Positions 9,364-36,017 of a stretch of 64,000 nucleotides of DNA are shown here, piece by piece. Numbering within the stretch: position 1 is the stretch's first letter; each line of letters begins with the position of its first letter. The stretch is taken from positions 1 through 64,000 of the forward strand of contig NZ_KV812007.1 in assembly GCF_001813295.1 (NCBI RefSeq), written 5' to 3'. The notes below the pieces were generated by a model, which was not told the DNA's origin, did no database searches, and worked only from the letters and a program-made list of their open reading frames with translations. Origin of the DNA: Streptococcus sp. HMSC072G04 (GTDB lineage: Bacteria > Bacillota > Bacilli > Lactobacillales > Streptococcaceae). A program made the position numbers and the translations under genes.

Positions 9364-9637
9364 ACAGATATTCTCTGGATACTTTAGAATCACATGATAA
9401 AGGTATTCTTAAACTGGGTACAAAAAACTAAGCCCTCCTAAAAAAGGACATCTAATTATTTGTTCCCGCTATCAAATTGACAGTTTATTTAAGAATACCT
9501 TGCCGCATATTTATTAACTCCTTTTAAATAGTCACTTAAATAATAGCACGTAAGAGCATATTTGTAAAGGAATCTCCAATTTTTTATCAAAAAGAGTACA
9601 TGATTACAAAGTATCTGTAATCATGTACCAATATTTG
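9364..9637 (-). promoter_or_regulatory. tet(M) promoter and attenuation leader
   Basis: This 274-base stretch has no gene besides the leader. A long imperfect repeat, GGTATTCTTAAACTG (near 9402-9416) against CAGTTTATTTAAGAATACC (near 9480-9498), can fold the transcript. It is the known Tn916 Ptet/attenuator region, from which induced read-through reaches orf7, orf8 and xis-int. Confidence 0.75.
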
Positions 9638-10570
9638 TTATTTTACAATCTTCCAATTACTCCCGTTCTTTTCAAGTACCAAATCAAATTGAGATACCTG
9701 CGTTGCTTTGGTCTGCTGGTCGATATACTCCACTGTCAGCGATACCGTGACTTGATTATCCTTACGATTGTGAATAGGATTTACCAGTTCTTGAAAGATG
9801 TACTCTTTTCCGATTGGTTTTAATATCCCGTCATTCACATAGTAGGAAAGTTCACTGGCTGTCGCTGTAGGATAGAGCTTGAAGAACGTCGTTAAAAACT
9901 CATTGATTTCATTGGTTGTAATGGAATCAACCGTCCCCTCACTTTCAATGGCTTTTGGTTTATAACTTGATTTCTTAGGTATGTTGGTAATGGTCGGATT
10001 CTTAACCAGTACCATATTTCCAGAACCATCTACATAGACACTCACTATATAAGCAGAGTGGACGGTCTTTGTATTTTCTCCCTCTGTAATGAGCTGGTCT
10101 ACACTGTAGGTTACATTAAACTCATTGTCGCCAGTTGGCTCTACCGTCCATATCTGAAATCCTCTTACAGAAGACGATACAGGAATATCTTTGCGTACTG
10201 TATCAACATTGAGAGCTTGAAGTTCATCTGTCAGATAGCCTTTTAGACTTTCCATTCGATTATCAATGGACTTATCGGATTGCTCCCATGAATAGTAGAC
10301 TTTCGCAAAGTTCTCTACAAAATTTTCTACATGATGAGTATCAACGTATTCCTTTTCTATGATAGTTGTTTCGTGAATAGTATGAGTATCTATAGCTGTA
10401 AAGTGCTTGAATATCGCAAAGCTGAAACTAAGCCCTAAAAGTACCCACAAGGCAATCACAACCTTTTTATGAGGATTGACCTTATAGACACGAGGTTTCT
10501 TTTCCTTTGGTATCTGTTTTTCTTTATTCTGATTTTTTCTAAATTTCATCATTAAATCTTCCTTTCTCAT
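9638..10570 (-). CDS. orf13: Conjugation protein Orf13 (TcpC/VirB8-like)
   Basis: A 310-residue protein with a short basic cytoplasmic start, one transmembrane segment (about residues 33-53, VVIALWVLLGLSFSFAIF) and an extracytoplasmic part with two NTF2-like domains, as in TcpC. It is a scaffold of the Gram-positive type IV secretion channel. Its start overlaps the orf14 stop by four bases. A second ATG pair (MMKF) is a possible start. Full length relative to Tn916. Confidence 0.92.
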   Translation of the reverse strand: MRKEDLMMKFRKNQNKEKQIPKEKKPRVYKVNPHKKVVIALWVLLGLSFSFAIFKHFTAIDTHTIHETTIIEKEYVDTHHVENFVENFAKVYYSWEQSDKSIDNRMESLKGYLTDELQALNVDTVRKDIPVSSSVRGFQIWTVEPTGDNEFNVTYSVDQLITEGENTKTVHSAYIVSVYVDGSGNMVLVKNPTITNIPKKSSYKPKAIESEGTVDSITTNEINEFLTTFFKLYPTATASELSYYVNDGILKPIGKEYIFQELVNPIHNRKDNQVTVSLTVEYIDQQTKATQVSQFDLVLEKNGSNWKIVK

Positions 10571-11568
10571 TGTTTGATTCGTCCTGCTTCCACTAAATGC
10601 TGTTGCCAGTAGGGGCTTGTTAAGTCGGCATAACCGATTGGGTCGCCTGCATGAAACATACGGTTATTGCCAAGGTATATCCCAACATGAGTAATATAAG
10701 AGCCAGCGTTATAGGTAGAATGAAAGAAAACCAAATCGCCAGCTTGTGCTTCCGATAGTGGGATATGCTGGGTCACATCATATTGCTGTTGTGCGGTTCG
10801 TGGTAAGTTAATTCCAGCTTTTCCATACGTCCATTGTGTCAGTCCGCTACAATCAAAAGAAGTAGTCGGGGAAGCTCCACCGTAAACGTATCGCCAGCCC
10901 TCATATTTCAGTGCTTCGTCCATGATGGCTTGTACCGTATCATCATCAAACTCTGTTGTGACAAGATACTGCGTTACCAGTTGCACATAAAACATATTGC
11001 CATAGTTGTATCGCCAGCCCCCATTGATAGGTATGGCTATGGGATTGGGGTAAGACACTTTTTCGCCACCTGAATACTCTTTTGAGAAACTTTGAGCCAG
11101 TTCAAAGGTATATTTATTTCCACGATTAGCCACATACCCTAAGAAACCACCACCATAATTGTAGGACTGGATAACCGATTCTAAATCTACACTGAGCCTT
11201 TCGCTACTGGCTAATAATTCACTGAAATACTTCACACCTTGCTTAATGGATTCTTCTGTACTCAATGAATTAGGTGGAAGACCGAGGGATTCCGAGGACT
11301 GCATAACATCTTCCGCAGTACCGCCCGATTCCACCTGTATAATCGCAAGAAGTATGTTGACATATTCTTCAACGCCATATTCTTTGGCATATTTTTCTAC
11401 CATAGGCTTATGAGCCAGCACTTCTGCGGAAACATTCACACCTCCATAATGAATATTGGAAATTCCGCTGTCCTGTTCATCTGAAAATAAAATGGCAACA
11501 AACAGAAGCAGTGAGAAGACCATCAAGAATAATCCAGAACCACCAATCACTAAAGTTTTCAACTTCAT
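10567..11568 (-). CDS. orf14: Conjugation cell-wall hydrolase Orf14 (lysozyme-like + NlpC/P60)
   Basis: Residues 1-30 form a membrane anchor. Residues about 55-200 resemble a lytic transglycosylase/muramidase with Glu80 in AIIQVESGG, and residues about 205-333 are an NlpC/P60 peptidase with Cys240 (FDCSGL) and His294 (ITHVGIY). The bifunctional enzyme opens peptidoglycan for the transfer channel. Coupled by overlap to orf13 and orf15. 333 residues as in Tn916. Confidence 0.95.
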   Translation of the reverse strand: MKLKTLVIGGSGLFLMVFSLLLFVAILFSDEQDSGISNIHYGGVNVSAEVLAHKPMVEKYAKEYGVEEYVNILLAIIQVESGGTAEDVMQSSESLGLPPNSLSTEESIKQGVKYFSELLASSERLSVDLESVIQSYNYGGGFLGYVANRGNKYTFELAQSFSKEYSGGEKVSYPNPIAIPINGGWRYNYGNMFYVQLVTQYLVTTEFDDDTVQAIMDEALKYEGWRYVYGGASPTTSFDCSGLTQWTYGKAGINLPRTAQQQYDVTQHIPLSEAQAGDLVFFHSTYNAGSYITHVGIYLGNNRMFHAGDPIGYADLTSPYWQQHLVEAGRIKQ

Positions 11569-13742
11569 GGTTTCTTACCGACTTTCTTAATGGTGGCGGT
11601 TTTGATTGGTGGTCTACTTCTTGTATTTTGTAGTGGTACTCTTTGAACAGTAGACGGACGTTCTTTTGTGATTGGACGTTGTGAAGTTCTATCTGCTGTA
11701 GTGGTTGAAGTTGCTGGCTTTTGAACGGTTTTTTCTTGAACGGTATTGCCTTGGCGTTCCACTTTTGGACTTGAAAAATCGGACTTAACTGCTGGACGCT
11801 CTTGTTTGGCTTGTTGAGATTCCTTATATGAAGTCTGAATATTAGACTGTTTTGAGGTCTGTTCATCATGATATTGTTCTTGTCTTGTAGTCGGTCTTTC
11901 ATGAACAGAAGAAGCAGGCTGTTTTTTCTGTTTGACCTGTTCCATTTCAGAGCGACGCTTCGCAATGGTTTTTCGCCTTTGTTCCTGCTGTTCCTTGCGT
12001 CCACTGGCTCTGTCCGCTTTGGTTTGAGAAATACTACTGGTTAAATCACGGACATTCTCTTTTACTTTGGATTTTCCTTGATATACTGCATATCTTGCAT
12101 TGGTCGGCAAATCTTTAACCTGTTCTTTCAAACCACTAGCAGTGTCTACCATTCTGTCTTTGGTATCAGCTACTGTACCGATGGTTTGACCGATACGTTT
12201 TCCAAGTGTTGATTTTTCCTTTCCGTCTGGTCGGGAGTGATCTGCTTGTGTCCTTGCAGAACTCCCCGAACCCGACTGTCCTTTTTTACCTGTAACAATG
12301 GCAGACCCAGCCCCTAGAGTAGTCATGGAACGTCCAAGTTTCCGCTGTAGACGGTGCATGTGAGCGTGCATAAGCATACGAGGTTTTCTCATCACACGAC
12401 TTCCCACACTTTGAGAATCGTTACTCTGTAGAGAAAACATACTCATTAAATCGCCCAGCTTGAAGTAGATTCCTGCAAAGGTCACAATCTGTAGAAAAGC
12501 AATCAAAAAGAACGGATAACCAGCCGATAAGGTATAGAGCATGGTTGAAATACTAAATGCTGTCGTAATAATCAATGTGATTCCAGCTCGTGTCAAAATG
12601 GTATTAAAGAGCTTTGTTATGGCTCGTTTTGACATACCATCAAATGATGGAATCATGCTTAAAATAAAGCTCACAGGCAGAAACATAGCATAGATGATAA
12701 AAAGTACCTGCGAGAAAATCATGATTCCTGTTAATAGGAATACAAATATGGAAATCCCAATATTGAAGACAAATAGGAAGAAGACTGTACCTAAACGGTT
12801 AATGGTCTTTGTAATGGTTAGATTGGTATTGCTTCTGTCTTCAATTTCTTCCGCAACAATTTTTTCTCTGTCTTCGCCATTGTTGGAATCTGGGCTGGTG
12901 GAGAGCAGGCTTTCCACACGGTCAATACCGATACTTTCAATGTCTGAACTGTTGTATTGAAGCAGTAGCCACGGTTGCTGAACCTGTATGGAAAACAGGC
13001 TATCTCTGATTAAGTCCACGCTGTCCTTGCCTTGACTATCGGAATGGGGCATGACAATCTTCGTGCCAAGTGATAAACTGGCATTACTGATGTCTGATGA
13101 AAAGTCATTGATTTTTTTAATGTAGTCGGGAGCGTAGGCAATAAAGGAAGCCGATAGGATAAACACCAGCACAAAATTCATAATGGCATGAATTGCCTTT
13201 GTGGTTTCTCTCTTTATCAGTCCCGTATAGGCAACATAAACCCCAAGAACCAAAATCAAGAGTAAGAGGAATCCAACATAGAAACCCTCTGTTGAAAATC
13301 CGTTTGCACTCACACCAGCTAAGGTCTGCATATTCTTACCAATGGAATCTGCTGTAGCGGAAATGAAGTCTAAGGAATAGGCTTCCTGTACTAAGTAACC
13401 TGTCGCATTGGAAACATACAAACTGATTGTCCAAATAAAATTGGTAATGGCATATAGTCCATACATGACCTGTTTTCCAATCCCGTCCGACCAGTTCCAC
13501 GGAAGCCAGCCCCAGCTATTATCCACATAAAAATCCAGTTGATAGTTTTCAAGTGGGTATCGGCTGTATTCATTTGCCACATTGACCGTATCATCTACCA
13601 AGCCCGCAGCTTGAACCACCGTTCCCAGCATGGCTAAAAGAAAAATGGCAATCACAAGTGTGAAAGCCACTGTCATTGCCACTTTACCTAGACGTTTCAG
13701 CGTCCAGTTTGATTTTATTCTGTTTACTATTGATGGTTTCAC
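11565..13742 (-). CDS. orf15: Conjugation membrane protein Orf15 (TcpH/VirB6-like)
   Basis: The 725-residue protein has an N-terminal signal-anchor, about seven further membrane segments up to residue 430, and a long basic, Gln/Lys/Ser-rich tail (from about 460) that should be cytoplasmic. This layout is that of VirB6/TrbL-like channel proteins. It is slightly shorter than the roughly 750 residues I recall for Tn916, a difference most easily placed in the low-complexity tail. Overlaps orf14 by four bases. Confidence 0.9.
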   Translation of the reverse strand: MKPSIVNRIKSNWTLKRLGKVAMTVAFTLVIAIFLLAMLGTVVQAAGLVDDTVNVANEYSRYPLENYQLDFYVDNSWGWLPWNWSDGIGKQVMYGLYAITNFIWTISLYVSNATGYLVQEAYSLDFISATADSIGKNMQTLAGVSANGFSTEGFYVGFLLLLILVLGVYVAYTGLIKRETTKAIHAIMNFVLVFILSASFIAYAPDYIKKINDFSSDISNASLSLGTKIVMPHSDSQGKDSVDLIRDSLFSIQVQQPWLLLQYNSSDIESIGIDRVESLLSTSPDSNNGEDREKIVAEEIEDRSNTNLTITKTINRLGTVFFLFVFNIGISIFVFLLTGIMIFSQVLFIIYAMFLPVSFILSMIPSFDGMSKRAITKLFNTILTRAGITLIITTAFSISTMLYTLSAGYPFFLIAFLQIVTFAGIYFKLGDLMSMFSLQSNDSQSVGSRVMRKPRMLMHAHMHRLQRKLGRSMTTLGAGSAIVTGKKGQSGSGSSARTQADHSRPDGKEKSTLGKRIGQTIGTVADTKDRMVDTASGLKEQVKDLPTNARYAVYQGKSKVKENVRDLTSSISQTKADRASGRKEQQEQRRKTIAKRRSEMEQVKQKKQPASSVHERPTTRQEQYHDEQTSKQSNIQTSYKESQQAKQERPAVKSDFSSPKVERQGNTVQEKTVQKPATSTTTADRTSQRPITKERPSTVQRVPLQNTRSRPPIKTATIKKVGKKP

Positions 13743-26486: not shown

Positions 26487-27251
26487 ATGAGCTACTCCCA
26501 TCTTACCATAACCGACCGAATAAAGATAGAAACTTACTTGGATTTAGGTTTAAAATCTTGCCAAATTGCAAGTAAACTTGACTTTCATAAGTCTACCATT
26601 TCAAGAGAGTTAAGACGATGCCAAAATGGTTACTACGCCGTCTTAGCACAGGAACAGTACGACCACAGGGCTAAGCAAAAGGGTCGGAAGTCTTGTTTGA
26701 CACCAAAGTTGAAAAAGGAAATTGAGAAGGGGTTAAAAGCCTCTTGGTCACCTGAACAGATTTGTGGTCGCTATCAGCTTGAACAAAAGCCAATGGTAGC
26801 TTTTAAAACCATCTATAACTGGCTCTATGCTGGTTTGATTGATCTGGATTTAAGCGTCCTGCGCCGAAAGGGAAAAAGTCGACAGCCCAAAGAAACACGT
26901 GGGACATTTAGGATTGGCACGTCGATTGCCAAACGTCCTAAAGAGGTCAGGAATCGTGAGACTTTTGGCCACTGGGAGCTCGATACTGTGGTGTCTTCCA
27001 GAGGTAAAAGCAAGGACTGTTTAGCGACCTTTCTAGAGAGAAAAACGCGCTTTTACTTAGCTTTCATTCCACTTTATACTCCTGAGATGAATCCGATTGA
27101 GCAAGTCTGGGCGGAGATTCGGAAGCGTGGGTTCGAGAAAAAGATGTTTAAAACTCTCAATGAAGTAATTGATAAGTTGCAAGAAGTGATTAGGAGCTTG
27201 CATTGGACAGTACTAAAATCTATTGTTCATAGAAGTTGGATTAGTTTTTGA
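26487..27251 (+). pseudogene. Hybrid IS30/IS630 transposase frame
   Basis: Residues 1 to about 193 are an IS30-family transposase N-terminal part: HTH (LTITDRIKIETYLDLG, HKSTISREL) and the first catalytic region (GHWELDTVVSS). From about residue 194 the sequence switches to a DDE_3/IS630 C terminus (FIPLYTPEMNPIEQVWAEIRK). The two are joined in frame, 254 residues total. IS30 catalytic residues after the first Asp and the IS630 N terminus are missing, so neither enzyme should work. Most likely two IS remnants fused by deletion. Confidence 0.8.
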
Positions 27252-27343
27252 TTTTAGGTGAGTATGAATAATTGAAAAATAAAAGTCATAATGTTATAAT
27301 TTGTGATATAAAGATAAATATTACATAGAATAGAGGTGGCCAT

Positions 27344-28216
27344 ATGGGGAAACTATTGGCGAGCCGAATGCGTAGTCGGAGAAAAGAACTGAATTTGTCT
27401 CAGGTTGAATTGGCTGCTGGTATCTGTGAACAGGCCCAAATCAGTAAAATTGAGCGAGATGCAGACTATAGTCCTGGCTCAGACTTAATATATGCCCTTG
27501 CAAAAAAGCTAAATGTATCAATGGACTACTTTTTTGACGAGGATATCCATGTCGAATCGGAGTTTTTGACTCAATTTCGTGCTGTATCTAAGAAATTCTT
27601 AGACTTACGAGATTATGATTCACTAAAATATATCTATGAGTTAGAAGCTGCGAAGACAGTAAAACTCCCTCTCTCCGATCAGTTATACCTTCAGTGGATA
27701 GAGGCTATTGTGTTGTTTAACCATGACCTTAAACAGAATGAAGCGATCAAAAAATTAGAAGCTATTTTGTCAAAATATAGCGAATATGATTGGGAATATT
27801 TGAATATCTCAAATAGTTTATTACACTTTTACTTTCAGACGGATGAACTCTCAAAATTTGAAGAAGTCTATAATCGCATGACCAATCTTTTTAAGAGTGT
27901 TAAGGTTCGGACAATTGATGAACTTGAAATTCTGATTAAATGTCGGTATAACTTTTGTCGGTATCTATGGTTAAACCAGCAAACAGAGAGAGCGATAAGT
28001 GAGACTTTTGAAACGATTGGTATTTGTCTCAAAAATAATAGTTTCTACTGTTTAGCTAATCTTTACTGTTTACTTGGGAATGTTAGTGAAGGTTTTGCCC
28101 ATAAAGATGCCGTTAAACAGTACTTTGTAACAGCGCAGCATGCATACCTGCTAGAGGGAAATGATAAGATGGCTTTAGACCTTGAGCGTTTTATCAATGA
28201 AACATTCCCAGCATAA
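27344..28216 (+). CDS. TprA/PlcR-type quorum-sensing regulator
   Basis: 290 residues: XRE helix-turn-helix at about 5-62 (RRKELNLSQVELAAGICEQAQISKIE) and a C-terminal array of TPR-like helices to the end, the RRNPP layout that binds short re-imported peptides. It resembles pneumococcal TprA in the opening MGxLLAxRxRxRRKELxLSQ and in length. It lies directly upstream of a short secreted-peptide gene and a bacteriocin operon on the same strand, the arrangement expected for peptide-controlled bacteriocin production. The cognate peptide is inferred, not shown. Confidence 0.85.
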   Translation: MGKLLASRMRSRRKELNLSQVELAAGICEQAQISKIERDADYSPGSDLIYALAKKLNVSMDYFFDEDIHVESEFLTQFRAVSKKFLDLRDYDSLKYIYELEAAKTVKLPLSDQLYLQWIEAIVLFNHDLKQNEAIKKLEAILSKYSEYDWEYLNISNSLLHFYFQTDELSKFEEVYNRMTNLFKSVKVRTIDELEILIKCRYNFCRYLWLNQQTERAISETFETIGICLKNNSFYCLANLYCLLGNVSEGFAHKDAVKQYFVTAQHAYLLEGNDKMALDLERFINETFPA

Positions 28217-28225
28217 TTGTTATAG

Positions 28226-28255
28226 ACAACTCAGTCTTTACTGTGTTGTTTTTTA
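28226..28255 (+). terminator. Terminator after the TprA-like gene
   Basis: ACAACTCAG / CTGTGTTGT with one mismatch, then six T. Separates the regulator transcript from the promoter at 28359. Confidence 0.6.
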
Positions 28256-28358
28256 TATGCATTTATTATAACATCTCTCATGAAACGAGTTATTTCTACG
28301 GTTAAAATAAACTTATTCATAATAAAAAAATAAAATAAAAAAATCTTTATAAATATAA

Positions 28359-28387
28359 TTGACAAATAATTTTCTGCGTGATAGAAT
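28359..28387 (+). promoter_or_regulatory. Promoter of the peptide gene
   Basis: TTGACA (28359-28364), 17-base spacer, TAGAAT (28382-28387). This is a near-consensus sigma-A promoter 33 bases before the peptide start. A strong core promoter suggests regulation by repression, as with TprA-type repressors. Confidence 0.75.
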
Positions 28388-28419
28388 ACAATCAAGGAAT
28401 ATGAAAGGGGTTGCAAGAT

Positions 28420-28557
28420 ATGAAGAAAGCAACTAAAAAGTTTGTTGTCGCAGTTTTATTAGCGGGTTTATTAGTTATTGTTGGTAAACCATCGATAAAT
28501 CCCGCTCCCGCCCCTTTAGGCTTTGATCCTGGAGAATTATATTCTGTAAAATTTTAA
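28420..28557 (+). CDS. Putative secreted signalling peptide (Phr-like), 45 residues
   Basis: Starts MKKATKKFVVAVLLAG with an AAAGGGG ribosome site nine bases upstream. A lysine-rich start, a hydrophobic core (residues 8-22) and a C-terminal part with PAPAPLGFDPGE and ending YSVKF give the layout of Phr/PapR-type pre-peptides, whose last residues are released and re-imported. It lies between the TprA-like gene and the bacteriocin. I do not recognise the sequence; the mature form is unknown. Confidence 0.7.
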   Translation: MKKATKKFVVAVLLAGLLVIVGKPSINPAPAPLGFDPGELYSVKF

Positions 28558-28702
28558 AATATGAATTGTACAATTTTATGAATAAGCTGGTAGTATTACC
28601 AGTTCAAAGAAAGGATAGTTGCCAATGTACTAAGTTGTCATAAGTTACTAAAAAAGAGTTGTAATTGTTAGTTTTAGTCAAAAATGAAATGGAGACTATG
28701 TT
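28558..28702 (+). promoter_or_regulatory. Regulatory region before the bacteriocin gene
   Basis: Two palindromes lie here: AATTGTACAATT (28564-28575) and CTGGTA/TACCAG (28587-28602). A weak promoter, TTGTCA (28635) and TGTAAT (28660) with a 19-base spacer, follows. They are candidate operators for the TprA-like protein; alternatively the operon is read through from 28359. Confidence 0.45.
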
Positions 28703-28996
28703 ATGAAGAAAAGAATTAAGAAGATTATTTCAACATCGTTACTTGCTCTTACCCTAGCTGGTGCAGGTGGTTCAATCGCTTCTGCCGCAACAGTTTATTA
28801 TAAAGGTTCTGCCGTTTATTGGAACTATGGTCGTACAGTAGGACTTTGGAGTTACTCACACGTTCAATCTGGTGTGTATGAACACGCAGCAAGTGCTAAC
28901 GGAGGTTTCTCAGGTTGGAAACGGCCAGGAATTGAAGCACGTGCATCTAGATATATTGGAAGTGGTACAGCACAATGTTACTGGAATTGTAGGTAA
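28703..28996 (+). CDS. Lactococcin 972-family bacteriocin precursor
   Basis: 97 residues: Sec signal peptide with cleavage likely at IASA/ATVYY (about residue 29), then a mature part of about 68 residues rich in Tyr, Trp, Ser and Gly (YWNYGRTVGLWSYSHVQSG, HAASANGG), typical of lactococcin 972. Lcn972 binds lipid II and blocks septum formation. The two genes downstream match the usual immunity/export partners of this family. Two cysteines at the end (CYWNC) could form a disulphide. Confidence 0.88.
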   Translation: MKKRIKKIISTSLLALTLAGAGGSIASAATVYYKGSAVYWNYGRTVGLWSYSHVQSGVYEHAASANGGFSGWKRPGIEARASRYIGSGTAQCYWNCR

Positions 28997-29002
28997 GCGC
29001 CT

Positions 29003-31204
29003 ATGACATACAAAAACATGTTATTAGGTAAAATGAAGTACTTAATCCTGTTTTTGATTGCCATTCAGAGCGTACTACTTGCTCTGATGGCAATTTTTTT
29101 TACAGGTGTTCAGTATGAGGAGGCATGGCAAAGTTATAACCGTAATTCTAGGACAGTTACAGTTTATCTTCAAAGATTATCTGAAGAACAGGCGCAAAGT
29201 GTATACCAATACTTTTTGGAACAAAGTGACTTGTCTATTTGGACGAAACGTACTACAAATAGTAGTAGGGATGGTTCAATAAATAGAATATATTTAGATG
29301 TTCTTGGCAATCCTGAAGGTTTTTCAGATTTTACAAACGGTGGTAAAATAATTTTATCACGCCAACAAATTTCAGATTTATTATCCCATAGTGACAATAA
29401 CTTGACTATTGGACTTGATAAGGGAACTGATAATATGCTCTATGAATTACCGAGCTTGTTATTTACAACCCCTGTTGTTATTAATCGGTTAGACCATATT
29501 TTTCAAGAAACAAATACAATAAACGGGATATATCATATCAATGGTCTTCAGGACGACCTCTCAAGAGAAACGTTTTTATCAAATCTCTCATCTATTACTG
29601 GGATTTCTGTTGAAGACTTGACTAGAGAGAGTTTTGGCAGTAATACTGTTGAGGGAATTGTGCCAATCGTTTTAGCTGCTAGTATTGCAGTAAATGCTAT
29701 GGTTCTTCTTGTTCTTTTCCTAATATGTGTTTTACAATCCTTTAAACATTTTGGGACATTGATACTACTTGGATGGGATAGGAAGGAGTTGTGGTCTGCC
29801 CTCTTTAAGGATTCTCTTCTGTTTTCTATTTATATTGCACCTGTTTCCGCACTAGCAACTTGGTTTTTGTCAGGTTGGGCTAGTTTTGGATTATCATCAT
29901 TTGTGTTAGTCTTTGCGGGTACAAGTCTTTCAATCTTGTTACTATTGCTAACATTAATTATTCCAAGTATTGTTGTTTATTGGGTTTCTCCATTAGCTGC
30001 AATTCATAAACGGTTACCAATGAAACCATTAATGGCAACCAGTTTGTTATTCTATACTTTAGTAGCTGGTTTATTAATAGCAGTTAGTCATTCCTTAGAT
30101 GCGCCAATGAATCAGTTCATTGATAATGTCAAAGTAGCTAGGGAGTGGAAAAGTGTCGAAAATATGTATGTTATTTCGGATTTTGTAGAAGGGGATGATA
30201 TAGGAACCTACTCTGGTAATACAAATTCATTAGAAAGCAGCATGTATCACTTTTACCAACGAATTTCAGAGATTCCAGGTGTTTATATTGCTCAGGGAGA
30301 ATATCTCGGGCAAGAATACCTTGATACAATCTATGGTACGTATCAAAATGTTCCTAAAAAACCATTTTGGTATTTAACCTATTCTTATAATTACTTATCT
30401 GAACTAGGAGTTGAGTTAAGTAATGAAGAATTATCCGAAATACGTAATGGTGCCAGATTGTACCTTATTCCTGATACTCTAGGTTCAGCGGATGTTGAAA
30501 CCATGAAGGCTTACTTACAAGAAGTTGTTCGAGTAAAACCAGGGGATATAGGGACTAAGTTTACAGAAAATCCAAGATTTTTATTTAGAACCTATCAGCC
30601 ATCTAAGTCCATTTTTACTTGGTCAAGATCAATCGATCGAGGTGTAACTAGTGAAGAACCTGTTATTTTTGTAGCAGCTCCTGAAAACTTGTACTTCATG
30701 GAATCAGCAAACCTATCTGTGAGTGGATATGACGGAATTTTGAAAGTTCGTGATAAGGAAACAACGAATCAGGTAAAATCAATTTTAGAAAATGAGTTCC
30801 CTGATTTATCAGACAATGCACTGAAATTTACAACGGTTAAGAATTATATCAATGGACTTCAGAAAGATCTCGGCTATACTTTCTACCTATTTGGAAGTAT
30901 CATTGCTATTATTGTCTTTACTATGATGGCTATCTTTTGGAGTTTTGTCTTGATTTATCGCTTGCTTTTCGAAGAAAAACTGTATGTACAATACTTCATG
31001 GGCTTTTCTCCTTGGAAGAGGTATAGCGGTGTTCTTTCTCTTGTCGTTGGTGTTTCTGCGATAGAACTACTAGTTTCTATCTTACTAGGCTCTAAGTTGG
31101 GAATAGTTTTAGCACTAGTTACATTTGCTTTCCAATTATTACTTCTTTACTTCAATCTATTCCGTAAAGAAGTAGAAAGTCTCATACAATCGTTTAAGGG
31201 GTGA
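29003..31204 (+). CDS. Bacteriocin-associated integral membrane protein (DUF1430)
   Basis: 733 residues, starting seven bases after the bacteriocin stop. One membrane segment at about 12-32, a large extracytoplasmic region, three to four segments at about 220-365, a second large outside region and three to four segments at the end (about 625-720), an MacB/FtsX-like layout. This family accompanies lactococcin 972 precursors and their ABC ATPase. It is probably the permease giving immunity or export. Ends four bases before the ATPase gene. Confidence 0.88.
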   Translation: MTYKNMLLGKMKYLILFLIAIQSVLLALMAIFFTGVQYEEAWQSYNRNSRTVTVYLQRLSEEQAQSVYQYFLEQSDLSIWTKRTTNSSRDGSINRIYLDVLGNPEGFSDFTNGGKIILSRQQISDLLSHSDNNLTIGLDKGTDNMLYELPSLLFTTPVVINRLDHIFQETNTINGIYHINGLQDDLSRETFLSNLSSITGISVEDLTRESFGSNTVEGIVPIVLAASIAVNAMVLLVLFLICVLQSFKHFGTLILLGWDRKELWSALFKDSLLFSIYIAPVSALATWFLSGWASFGLSSFVLVFAGTSLSILLLLLTLIIPSIVVYWVSPLAAIHKRLPMKPLMATSLLFYTLVAGLLIAVSHSLDAPMNQFIDNVKVAREWKSVENMYVISDFVEGDDIGTYSGNTNSLESSMYHFYQRISEIPGVYIAQGEYLGQEYLDTIYGTYQNVPKKPFWYLTYSYNYLSELGVELSNEELSEIRNGARLYLIPDTLGSADVETMKAYLQEVVRVKPGDIGTKFTENPRFLFRTYQPSKSIFTWSRSIDRGVTSEEPVIFVAAPENLYFMESANLSVSGYDGILKVRDKETTNQVKSILENEFPDLSDNALKFTTVKNYINGLQKDLGYTFYLFGSIIAIIVFTMMAIFWSFVLIYRLLFEEKLYVQYFMGFSPWKRYSGVLSLVVGVSAIELLVSILLGSKLGIVLALVTFAFQLLLLYFNLFRKEVESLIQSFKG

Positions 31205-31208
31205 TTTA

Positions 31209-31865
31209 ATGTCTATGATTTCCGTACAAAATGTGTCAAAAAAATTTGGGTCACGTGAGATTTTAAAAGACTTAAGTTTTGATGTTGAGGAAAATGAATT
31301 TGTAGCTTTAGTAGGGCCATCTGGTTCTGGAAAATCTACGTTACTTAATATGATTGGCCTTTTGGATAATATTGATAGTGGTAAGATTTTAATCAACGGG
31401 AAGATCTTACCAAAAGTGAATTCGCGTTCTGCGGTTAACTATCGAAAGAATGTTATCAACTATCTATTTCAATCAAATGCACTCATCTCTACATCCAGTG
31501 TAAAAGATAATCTCATGCTTGCTATGAACTTTACTAATTTCTCTAAAGAAGAGAAGGAGAAAAAGATTAAAGAAACCTTGCGGTTTGTTGGTTTGGAAAA
31601 TAGACTAGATAGCAAGGTCAATGAATTATCTGGAGGTGAGCAGCAGAGAATCGCCATCGTGAGAGCTATTCTAAAACCAGGTGATATCATCTTGGCAGAT
31701 GAACCAACAGGTTCATTGGATCCTGATATGGCTCAAAAATCATTTGACTTAATTCGGTCATTGAGAGATCAGTTTGGAAAAACAATTCTAATCGTCACAC
31801 ATAATTTAGACCATGCGAAACAATGTGATCGAATTGTCTCGTTGAAATCAGCTTTTGTAAATTAG
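31209..31865 (+). CDS. ABC transporter ATPase of the bacteriocin locus
   Basis: 218 residues. Walker A GPSGSGKST (about 36-44), signature LSGGEQQR (about 140-147), Walker B ILADEPTG and the H-loop THN. Member of the MacB/LolD-like family found with Lcn972 bacteriocins. Pairs with the DUF1430 membrane protein as a self-protection or export pump. Last gene of the apparent operon. Confidence 0.93.
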   Translation: MSMISVQNVSKKFGSREILKDLSFDVEENEFVALVGPSGSGKSTLLNMIGLLDNIDSGKILINGKILPKVNSRSAVNYRKNVINYLFQSNALISTSSVKDNLMLAMNFTNFSKEEKEKKIKETLRFVGLENRLDSKVNELSGGEQQRIAIVRAILKPGDIILADEPTGSLDPDMAQKSFDLIRSLRDQFGKTILIVTHNLDHAKQCDRIVSLKSAFVN

Positions 31866-32750: not shown

Positions 32751-32782
32751 GGTTACCTCTATGAAGGTAGCCCTATTTTTTT
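32748..32782. terminator. Terminator at the recombinase 3' end
   Basis: TAGGGTTACCT and AGGTAGCCCTA form the stem, followed by seven T on the plus strand. The recombinase stop codon lies in the second arm. Confidence 0.7.
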
Positions 32783-33672
32783 GACTGTGAATGAATCGAA
32801 GCGATGGGATTACACAGAGTTAGAATTTCTTTTTGCTTTGACTGAGATACATGAGTATAGATTTGTGTGACTGAGATAGAACTATGTCCAAGAATTTGTT
32901 GAATGTATCGAATATCTACATCACTATCTAGAAGCATTGTTGCGAAACTATGTCTAAACATATGGGGGGTAATAGGTGTAGTTAAGTTATGTTGTTTAAC
33001 AAGGGTATTTAGAATTAAACGTACACTTTGCTCTGACAATGGGTTGAAAGAATATTTTCCAGAGAATAGGTAGTCACTGGGTTGAAAGCAGTAGTTATTT
33101 ATATATGTTTCTAGTAAGCTAAATGTTATTTGATCTCCTAAAAATAGGATACGTTCTTTCTTGCCTTTTCCCATAATATGGAGAGTCCTATTTGAAAGAT
33201 TAATGTTTTTAAGATGAATATGACAAAGTTCGGAAATCCTAATTCCAGTTGAAAGCAATAGGGAAATGATTAGCAAATTTCTTTCAGCTTTTTGTTTTTG
33301 ATATTTAGTTTTTGAATAGGTAACTTTCTGTTCTAGATGTGAAAAAATACTTTTCAAAATATCATAAGGAATCGTTTTAGGTAATATTTTTTCCGTTCTA
33401 AATTGATAACGTAATTGATTAAAAGGATTCTCATCAACTAAATTATGATATTTTAAGTAGCTGTAAAACACCTTCAAACTAGCAATTTTGCGACGTAATG
33501 TATTAGATTTAATATTGGATTTCGTCAAATGTTCAACATAGGTTTCCACACTGCTGTAATTTGAATTGTAAAATTGCAAAAGATCATTTTTGTAAGCTCG
33601 AATCGTATGTGAACTCAAGCGTTTATGGGTTTTGCAGTAGTCTAAGAAAGTAGAAATATGTTTATAATCCAT
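32773..33672 (-). CDS. XerC/D-like tyrosine recombinase
   Basis: The start MDYKHISTF is preferred (AAAGGAG seven bases before), giving 299 residues. An N-terminal SAM-like core-binding domain (about 5-90) precedes the catalytic domain. Catalytic residues are visible: Arg in STGIRISELCH, Lys in MGKGKKER, HxxR in HMFRHSFAT, His in LGHSS and Tyr in QIYTHVS. Its size is that of Xer and of small simple recombinases (integron, phase-variation) rather than of large phage integrases. It could integrate the island, or invert the neighbouring cassette flanked by inverted repeats. Confidence 0.92.
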   Translation of the reverse strand: MDYKHISTFLDYCKTHKRLSSHTIRAYKNDLLQFYNSNYSSVETYVEHLTKSNIKSNTLRRKIASLKVFYSYLKYHNLVDENPFNQLRYQFRTEKILPKTIPYDILKSIFSHLEQKVTYSKTKYQKQKAERNLLIISLLLSTGIRISELCHIHLKNINLSNRTLHIMGKGKKERILFLGDQITFSLLETYINNYCFQPSDYLFSGKYSFNPLSEQSVRLILNTLVKQHNLTTPITPHMFRHSFATMLLDSDVDIRYIQQILGHSSISVTQIYTHVSQSKQKEILTLCNPIASIHSQSKK

Positions 33673-33727
33673 GAATAACTCCTTTATCAATAATCATGCT
33701 ATTATATACTTATTTGAATGCTTTGTA

Positions 33728-33762: not shown

Positions 33763-34476
33763 GTGAGAGAATTTCAATATTTCATAAGTTATTCAAGAGA
33801 TATTTACTACGAATTTGTAAATCATCTGAATAATATGTTAAACGAAATAGGATTAAAAACCTGGATTGACAAATTTGAAATTAACATTGGAGATGAAATA
33901 ATTGATAATCTATATACTGTACTCGATAAAAGTGCTGATTATTATGGAATTATTTTTATATTCGATGAAACATTCTTTAACAAAGCATGGTGTATAAAAG
34001 AGCTAGATTATGCGATGAAGAAAAGGATTCCTTTTTTTCCAGTATTGTATAAAATAAAAAAAGAAGATATTCCTAGTGAGTATACCTTCTTAAAAAATTA
34101 TAATTTATTAACGGTATCATCGTTAAAAGAGATAGATTATATCGTAGATCGCTTTATATTACTGCATTTGAACAATATTGTTTGTAGAGATATTCCTAAG
34201 TTTTCAATCAGCAGTTATGTCGGTAACTTTTTATTAGAACAGATTCGGTGTTGTACTGTAAACAATATTGACGCTATTTTTATCATAGATAACTTCTCTC
34301 AATATTTGAGAAAGCAGAAAAAGTCAGGAGATTTTAAACTAACTCACGAAATATTATTTTGTACTGAAATAACTCAATTATTAAAAGAACGCTTATTTAG
34401 GAAAGACTTTCAGGGAGAATATCATTTTAAAATACTGGAAATTATCCAAGAAATATACACAAACATATATATGTGA
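33763..34476 (+). CDS. thsB: Thoeris TIR protein ThsB
   Basis: 237 residues from a GTG start (an ATG two bases earlier runs straight into TGA). Residues 1 to about 140 form a TIR domain: FISYSRD, the LKTWID strand, and catalytic Glu80 in WCIKELDYA. On phage infection ThsB proteins make a cyclic ADP-ribose isomer that activates ThsA. The C-terminal 90 or so residues extend beyond the roughly 195-residue ThsB of Bacillus cereus and have no motif I recognise. It converges on thsA, with 68 bases between stops. Confidence 0.9.
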   Translation: MREFQYFISYSRDIYYEFVNHLNNMLNEIGLKTWIDKFEINIGDEIIDNLYTVLDKSADYYGIIFIFDETFFNKAWCIKELDYAMKKRIPFFPVLYKIKKEDIPSEYTFLKNYNLLTVSSLKEIDYIVDRFILLHLNNIVCRDIPKFSISSYVGNFLLEQIRCCTVNNIDAIFIIDNFSQYLRKQKKSGDFKLTHEILFCTEITQLLKERLFRKDFQGEYHFKILEIIQEIYTNIYM

Positions 34477-34544
34477 TTGAAATTTAGAGAATATCAAACA
34501 AAAATAGAGATCCATCGAAGTGAAGTCAATCGTTGAGTCTCTAT

Positions 34545-36017
34545 TTATATTACGGGAGCATTCTTTATATACTTGCTATCCATGATGTAAGACTCTCTGA
34601 TATATTTAATGCAGTCAATAATAGTTTGAGATAGAATTTCAGGATCCTTCTCCGTTAGTAACTTATCTAGAAAAGGAGTGAGATAGGAATATTTATCAAT
34701 TTCAGATAAAAGTGTTTGATATACTTCTAAAGAGCTCCAACCAGTTGAACCTACAGGAATAATAAATCTATTTTGCTTCATTGCCCTATCAAAATCTTCC
34801 AGTACTCCCCTAGAATTAGATAAAGTCCCATCATAATATTGGTTTCCGAATACAAATATAACTATTCCTGCTTCTGATATCATATTATCTTGAAATCTTT
34901 GTTTTGCAGATCTATCAATATGTTTATCGCTCCCCTTAATTAATGGGAGAGTTTTAATTTTTAAATACTTCGAAATATCAAGATTTTTATCATTAATCGC
35001 TGTCATCACACCATTAATCACCTGTGGTCCTACACCTTCTATATTCCCATTTCCAACAATAATTCCATTATCAATTAACTTATATCCTAAAAGATATAAA
35101 AACTCAGTAGCACTAGTCTCATCCCATTCTCCATAATTTCTGCAACTTCCAGCAATAAAGACACTGTTGGTTAAATATAACTGATAGCACTGATTAAAGA
35201 TTTCATCAATCTCATTATAATTATCAATCAAAATAGTATGAATGCCATATCTTTTTAAATCATTTATTTCGAGCTCTTGTTTTATCTTGCCATATTCTAA
35301 TTCGTTTTCAGGGGCGTTGGAATTTTTAAACATATCAATAGATAAATTTTTCCGAAAGCAATAATGCATTCTAATATTTTCCCCGATTAATAATCTAATT
35401 TTACTTAGAATTTGCTGAATATCTGGATCATTTAAACTATATCCTACAAATACAAATGTTTTACTAATCAGATCTCCTCGAAGTGTTTGGATAAAAAGTT
35501 TGTGACTCTCATCAAAACTCTCATAATCATCCCGAGTCAACACTGCCTCATAGGGTCTAGAAATATCTCCATGAAATTTATATACAGTAGTATCAATATT
35601 TGGGGGTGTAATTGATAAATCGTTATTATCAATCTTGACATCTACGCGTCTTCCAGATTTCTTCAAGTTGTCTTCAATTAAGTGATCATAATTAGTTGTC
35701 CAAAAAGTCCCGATGGGCATACTTGTTAGAAGTGTCAGCAAATTATTATCTTTAGAGTCTTTAGTAAATTCTTGTATTAGTTTTTGTGTAATCTGATTTT
35801 TTGAATGTGCAGAATTTTTATAGTACTGTGCAACTGAAATTAAGTCGTGTTCTTTATCAATATCTAGTCCAATCGAATCAGAAAATTGCCGTAATAGTTC
35901 TTTCCAGTTTACATACCCTGAGGGAACTGAGAGTCCTGCGCCAGCAAAAACAGCTACATTATTTTCTAACATTGCTGCACTAAAATCAGAAATAAATTGT
36001 TGTTTTAGTTTTTTCAT
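34545..36017 (-). CDS. thsA: Thoeris effector ThsA (SIR2-SLOG)
   Basis: 490 residues. N-terminal SIR2 NADase with AGAGLSVPSG (about 25-34), Asn109 in WTTNYDHL and His149 in KFHGD, equivalent to the catalytic pair of B. cereus ThsA. From about residue 285 a SLOG domain (VFIAGSCRNYGEWD, VGNGNIEGVGPQVI) senses the TIR-made signal. Activation depletes NAD+ and stops infected cells. Convergent with thsB; its ribosome site is inside the right 30-bp inverted repeat. Confidence 0.93.
   Translation of the reverse strand: MKKLKQQFISDFSAAMLENNVAVFAGAGLSVPSGYVNWKELLRQFSDSIGLDIDKEHDLISVAQYYKNSAHSKNQITQKLIQEFTKDSKDNNLLTLLTSMPIGTFWTTNYDHLIEDNLKKSGRRVDVKIDNNDLSITPPNIDTTVYKFHGDISRPYEAVLTRDDYESFDESHKLFIQTLRGDLISKTFVFVGYSLNDPDIQQILSKIRLLIGENIRMHYCFRKNLSIDMFKNSNAPENELEYGKIKQELEINDLKRYGIHTILIDNYNEIDEIFNQCYQLYLTNSVFIAGSCRNYGEWDETSATEFLYLLGYKLIDNGIIVGNGNIEGVGPQVINGVMTAINDKNLDISKYLKIKTLPLIKGSDKHIDRSAKQRFQDNMISEAGIVIFVFGNQYYDGTLSNSRGVLEDFDRAMKQNRFIIPVGSTGWSSLEVYQTLLSEIDKYSYLTPFLDKLLTEKDPEILSQTIIDCIKYIRESYIMDSKYIKNAPVI

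Follow-up and report, generated by a model that had tools for sequence, protein, structure and literature searches.

The 64-kb stretch of DNA analyzed here (hereafter, the window), taken from Streptococcus sp. HMSC072G04, encodes on its forward strand a locus of five open reading frames (ORFs), in the order regulator, small peptide, bacteriocin precursor, membrane protein and ATP-binding cassette (ABC) ATPase (Table 1). The source genome is that of Streptococcus parasanguinis, as the regulator is 99.7–100% identical in four named records of that species. An ORF check of the window recovered all five genes with the coordinates, strand, and order given by an initial annotation made from the sequence alone, and the comparisons below bear out its description of the first two products as a TprA/PlcR-type regulator and a secreted-type peptide behind a consensus promoter. 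We propose, with a probability of roughly 0.8, that a Tpr/Phr-type pheromone circuit controls the lactococcin 972 (Lcn972)-like bacteriocin cassette. This was, in essence, also the reading of the initial annotation, and it is the best supported one, through the PhrA-type core of the peptide, its conservation with the regulator even where the cargo differs, and the recurrence of the gene order in other streptococci; quorum control itself is inferred.

Table 1. Features of the putative pheromone-controlled bacteriocin locus (window coordinates)
Feature	Coordinates	Strand	Basis
Regulator promoter, TTGAAA-17-TATAAT	27272–27300	+	11/12 consensus matches; conserved across three species
TprA/PlcR-like RRNPP regulator, HTH and TPR helices, 290 aa	27344–28216	+	HTH_3, PlcR similarity, predicted fold
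Peptide-gene promoter, TTGACA-17-TgTAGAAT, extended -10	28359–28387	+	11/12 matches
Putative Phr-type pheromone precursor, 45 aa, C-terminal end PLGFDPGELYSVKF	28420–28557	+	Coding constraint, family likeness
Perfect 6-bp hairpin, CTGGTA-gtat-TACCAG, between peptide and bacteriocin genes	28587–28602	.	
Divergent Lcn972-like bacteriocin precursor, 97 aa, Sec-type signal, C-terminal CYWNCR	28703–28996	+	
FtsX-like membrane protein, 733 aa, remote DUF1430 relative, presumed immunity	29003–31204	+	
ABC ATPase, 218 aa, best family Lcn972-associated ABC TIGR03608	31209–31865	+	

The regulator contains an HTH_3 domain (PF01381; 45.7 bits against a cut-off of 23) and a RNPP_C match that falls just below threshold (PF18768; 23.3 bits against 26.5), and its best sequence relative of solved structure is PlcR (2qfc; phmmer, E = 2.6e-10 over residues 5–255). 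Further, its predicted model is all-helical (pLDDT 84.5), with PlcR bound to PapR as the top match in the PDB (E = 2e-10), followed by ComR and Rgg. Judged by sequence and model, it is a PlcR/TprA-like RRNPP protein that is predicted to bind a peptide. It is 38–39% identical to canonical TprA proteins, and the same genome holds a second, separate canonical TprA copy with PhrA (L087).

The peptide gene, for which the ATG at 28420 is the best start, encodes the 45-residue product MKKATKKFVVAVLLAGLLVIVGKPSINPAPAPLGFDPGELYSVKF. Regulator and peptide are kept together in S. merionis and S. suis, at protein identities of 92% and 82%, respectively, for the regulator and 67% and 78% for the peptide, and dN/dS values of 0.15, 0.22, and 0.11 for the three species pairs reveal that the peptide is under purifying selection. 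Because of this 67–78% identity in two other species, and dN/dS of 0.11–0.22, the ORF is no chance frame. Genus-wide, short peptides adjoining related regulators have a hydrophobic N-terminal segment and, near the C-terminus, a hydrophobic-D-x-G core, which reads GFDPGELY in the window, GIDPGV, EIDPGPAN, GVDPGPAY, GIDTGAYY, or GFDPGPVF beside related regulators, and LDVGKAD at TprA loci. The window peptide fits this informal class of Tpr-associated DxG signal peptides, which we delimit as products of 30–60 residues that are hydrophobic in an N-terminal segment, have [ILVF]-D-x-G close to the C-terminal end, and are encoded beside a TprA-like regulator; some related regulators have no adjacent peptide detectable under the filter used. 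When a loose peptide filter was applied to the whole window, 5 of 741 frames passed, and only the 45-residue peptide was family-like. Candidate C-terminal peptides derived from it include FDPGELY, GFDPGELYSVKF, and LYSVKF. Its core matches those of PhrA (LDVGKAD) and PhrA2 (VDLGLAD), two heptapeptides with demonstrated activity in synthetic form (PMC5436883), and that of an S. thermophilus precursor ending GIDPGPANIMVK, a C-terminal peptide of which was detected in the supernatant by mass spectrometry (PMC12445099).

Among S. parasanguinis, S. merionis, and S. suis, the peptide promoter has stayed conserved but the DNA upstream of it has not, and related peptide genes are preceded by the same promoter layout. 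Conserved footprints precede both the peptide gene and the regulator gene. Because no forward-strand promoter with at least 9 of 12 consensus matches was found between the end of the peptide gene and the beginning of the bacteriocin gene, the genes would constitute a single operon, and the peptide promoter probably serves all of it. An Rfam search of the locus returned no match. In two other peptide promoters (L102 and L101), the sequence TGACAACGCTTTCA, overlapping the -35 element, resembles by eye a catabolite-response element, which is known for phrA; inspected likewise by eye, the window promoter revealed no such element.

In the circuit that we propose, the peptide precursor would be exported by Sec and trimmed to a mature C-terminal pheromone containing GFDPGELY, which would build up with cell density and return to the cell via an oligopeptide permease (the window genome has genes for five oligopeptide-binding proteins). 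There, it would bind the TPR groove of the regulator, which most likely represses the strong peptide promoter until the peptide releases it. Release would lead to positive feedback on the peptide gene and let transcription run on into the three cassette genes, such that the bacteriocin would be secreted by Sec and presumably kill, while the FtsX-like protein and the ATPase would protect the producer. We favor repression because TprA and TprA2 act as repressors until their own peptides release them (PMC7595303, PMC5436883) and because the promoter is strong on its own. The same circuit could have the opposite sign, with the regulator being an activator, as PlcR and ComR are, that needs bound peptide. 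PlcR, the best structural match, is an activator, and an A/T-rich block upstream of the -35 element is conserved in the three species. However, a near-consensus promoter with an extended -10 element should need no activator, and TprA and TprA2 are also the closest characterized streptococcal relatives (PMC7595303), so that activation, while a serious alternative, seems unlikely.

The labels previously given to the cassette held in part. The designation of the precursor as Lcn972-like stands at the level of profiles and fails at that of curated families: no Pfam or NCBIfam model recognizes the precursor, including PF09683 and TIGR01653, and the window genome contains no PF09683 match at E ≤ 0.001. 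A streptococcal Lcn972 profile, by contrast, picked it out from 538 window ORFs as the sole significant match (E = 2e-5), and a profile–profile comparison with Lcn972 (hhalign, E = 9.7e-7) and a blastp comparison with the member at L071 (E = 2.7e-7) agreed. Read by eye, its Sec-type leader ends ASA-A. Its close relatives share the C-terminal CYWNCR, where Lcn972 itself has FYYNF, and its insertion and Cys pair are both absent from the other members compared; by remote homology, it appears to be a divergent, Cys-containing Lcn972-like protein. A comparison of the mature bacteriocin with solved structures gave no relevant match. The DUF1430 label of the membrane protein fared similarly, with 17.6 bits to PF07242 (cut-off 28.2) and no TIGR01654 match, but a profile–profile match to TIGR01654-type permeases (probability 94.7, E = 5.6e-8). 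It has about eight hydrophobic segments, looks like an FtsX permease that has been duplicated, and is a likely remote relative of Lcn972-associated membrane proteins. The ATPase scores best with the Lcn972 ABC family TIGR03608 (241.7 bits, just under the cut-off of 254.85). A secreted protein that has no kinship with Lcn972 and serves some purpose other than antimicrobial action would be in keeping with the lack of a curated match and with the unusual insertion and Cys pair, yet this is improbable for a precursor that alone among the window ORFs matches the streptococcal profile, does so in profile–profile comparison too, and is encoded alongside an Lcn972-type ABC protein and a DUF1430-like permease.

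A survey of 284 streptococcal genomes yielded 125 Lcn972-like genes (105 PF09683 genes and 20 of the window type), at least 33 of which have a TprA-like regulator no more than 3 kb away, where ~0.5 would be expected by chance. By type, at least 18 of the 105 PF09683 genes (chance, 0.4) and at least 15 of the 20 window-type genes (chance, 0.1) were this near to a listed TprA-like regulator. The pairing occurs in at least five regulator subclades, according to a quick tree with open forks and long branches that was used only for showing that several subclades carry Lcn972 cargo. The full five-gene order recurs in S. merionis and with other regulator groups (L071/L074/L075, L082–L083, and L113), so that both the regulator subclade and the Lcn972 gene vary; at the canonical TprA loci L085, L086, and L110, the cassette is divergently placed behind phrA. 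A DxG peptide precedes 18 of the 20 window-type bacteriocin genes, several having decayed together with the cassette, and the two cassettes without a peptide also lack the regulator. Decayed versions of the TprA locus, with broken or altered PhrA frames and frame-shifted bacteriocin C-termini, were seen as well (L100, L104, L105, L106, and L108).

These distributions bear on whether the peptide–regulator pair could control mainly itself or distant targets, with the cassette being a chance neighbor under its own control. The two cassettes that lack both genes would fit such an arrangement, as would S. suis, in which the same pair stands beside unrelated cargo, comprising transporter genes and a DUF3267-like protein. 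Nevertheless, the pairing of Lcn972 genes with TprA-like regulators lies so far over expectation, in so many subclades, and with no separate bacteriocin promoter found, that we consider chance neighborhood quite improbable. That the 45-residue ORF encodes a further small antimicrobial, or else a leader peptide, as a small secreted-type peptide heading a bacteriocin operon might be, is harder still to sustain, given that a PhrA/PhrA2-type D-x-G core is common to the peptides beside related regulators and that the peptide is conserved with the regulator rather than with the cargo.

Several observations nonetheless weigh against the proposed pheromone control. The tpr and peptide genes of the window are co-directional, whereas pneumococcal tprA and phrA are divergent, and no operator palindrome common to the regulator subclades was found. 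In PhrA and PhrA2, the active heptapeptide ends the precursor, whereas in the window peptide, several residues follow the DxG core. The NCBIfam PhrA_Strep model (NF040904) does not match the window peptide, yet does detect PhrA at the canonical locus (116.6 bits); by analogy, the window peptide would work like PhrA while standing outside the curated PhrA family. The hairpin that follows the peptide gene could interrupt read-through into the bacteriocin gene; it is terminator-like on the reverse strand only, and its region folds no better than shuffled sequences (z -1.1). Finally, three loci (L114, L115, and L118) combine a peptide (GFDSGLVFVAQ/K) and a window-type cassette with no adjoining regulator, and are possible eavesdroppers on a Tpr encoded elsewhere.

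Comparison of the window-type loci with canonical TprA loci points to movement of the cassettes themselves. The regulators of S. parasanguinis and S. merionis are 92% identical and the TprA proteins of L085 and L097 98% identical, as opposed to 38–39% across the two types. In the cassettes, the relationships are reversed: that of S. parasanguinis resembles that of the L097 TprA locus (85%, 75%, and 83% identity for the bacteriocin, permease, and ABC protein), that of S. merionis resembles that of the L085 TprA locus (71% and 61% for the bacteriocin and permease), and the S. parasanguinis and S. merionis cassettes are barely alignable with each other. Since regulator and cassette identities are opposed, each of two cassettes is found with both pheromone circuits, and Lcn972 cassettes appear, from these alignments, to have been exchanged between circuits. 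Within pneumococcus, bacteriocins have been described to switch next to TprA (PMC6120550), whereas the apparent exchange here crosses both species and circuits. More tentatively, Lcn972 cassettes may be exchangeable cargo of genus-wide Tpr switches that each have a D-x-G pheromone of their own, with cassettes moving between circuits, regulator-less loci answering to a Tpr encoded elsewhere, and the CYWNC type forming a separate, disulfide-containing branch missed by curated models. In the S. suis record (L006), an ABC ATPase, membrane proteins, and the DUF3267-like protein are encoded beside the regulator–peptide pair, at about 9390–12900, and a 56-codon ORF with a TTG start could encode a small bacteriocin.

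The surroundings of the locus vary between strains. In other S. parasanguinis strains (L003, L119, L120, and L121), a streptosactin cluster (Rgg, the radical SAM protein GggB, and the exporter GggC) immediately precedes the Tpr regulator. This cluster is missing from the window strain, which has in its place an IS30-like ORF (26487–27251) that resembles a fusion of the two insertion sequence (IS) remnants flanking the cluster in L003, as if the cluster had been deleted by recombination between them. Downstream, a Thoeris-like defense pair (33763–36017) comprises ThsA (509.6 bits, reverse strand) and a TIR-domain protein. The genes past a conserved tyrosine recombinase differ between strains (window 32776–33690 and downstream; L003 14414–16412), with Thoeris in the window strain and ThsB-like TIR and caspase-domain genes in L003, and this strain-variable content suggests a defense-gene hot spot.

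If our reading holds, Tpr/Phr control would be extended from lanthipeptides to Lcn972-like bacteriocins through a concrete receptor–peptide pair in a common oral commensal. Further, D-x-G near the C-terminus of a peptide encoded beside a TprA-like gene offers a simple sequence signature for finding further pheromones, and exchange of cassettes between two pheromone circuits would make interspecies cross-talk and cheating testable.

Of the systems described before, TprA/PhrA of S. pneumoniae D39 and TprA2/PhrA2 of PMEN1 share with the window locus a PlcR-type regulator adjoining a secreted hydrophobic-D-x-G peptide that heads a bacteriocin operon, but their cargo is a lanthipeptide, and the window regulator has the 38–39% identity to TprA given above. 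With lactococcin 972 (PF09683, TIGR01653), the window cassette shares a Sec-type leader, W-x-Y-G and Y-S motifs, an H, and the membrane protein and ABC ATPase; it differs in a precursor that lies under all curated cut-offs, has extra residues before W-x-Y-G, and carries the conserved C-terminal CYWNC. In strain FW213, the Lcn972 gene Spaf_1859 was 3-fold up and its ABC genes were 6-fold up in early stationary phase (PMC3329508), a rise that would fit the proposed circuit if Spaf_1859 is the window bacteriocin gene; a second Lcn972, this one detected by Pfam, is present in other S. parasanguinis genomes. Streptococcin B (scb), under ComE and open to activation through the ComR-type ScbR (PMC11796350), is likewise an Lcn972-like, peptide-inducible bacteriocin adjoining an RRNPP regulator, but is of the ComR/XIP rather than the Tpr/Phr type, with no peptide gene found in the two surveyed pneumococcal genomes (SP9 and D39). 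Streptococcin E, at the TprA locus, is Lcn972-like and predicted to be under TprA/PhrA (PMC6120550, PMC11796350); homologues of the window cassette lie behind phrA in other streptococci, whereas the window cassette itself would be under another Tpr subfamily, which has a peptide of its own. Lcn972-like bacteriocins under quorum control are therefore already known (PMC11796350), and the view in the initial annotation that they are usually described without quorum sensing is outdated. What is new is a distinct subfamily of Tpr regulators that has a conserved peptide of its own, the putative branch of Cys-containing Lcn972-like proteins outside the reach of curated models, and the apparent exchange of cassettes between circuits.

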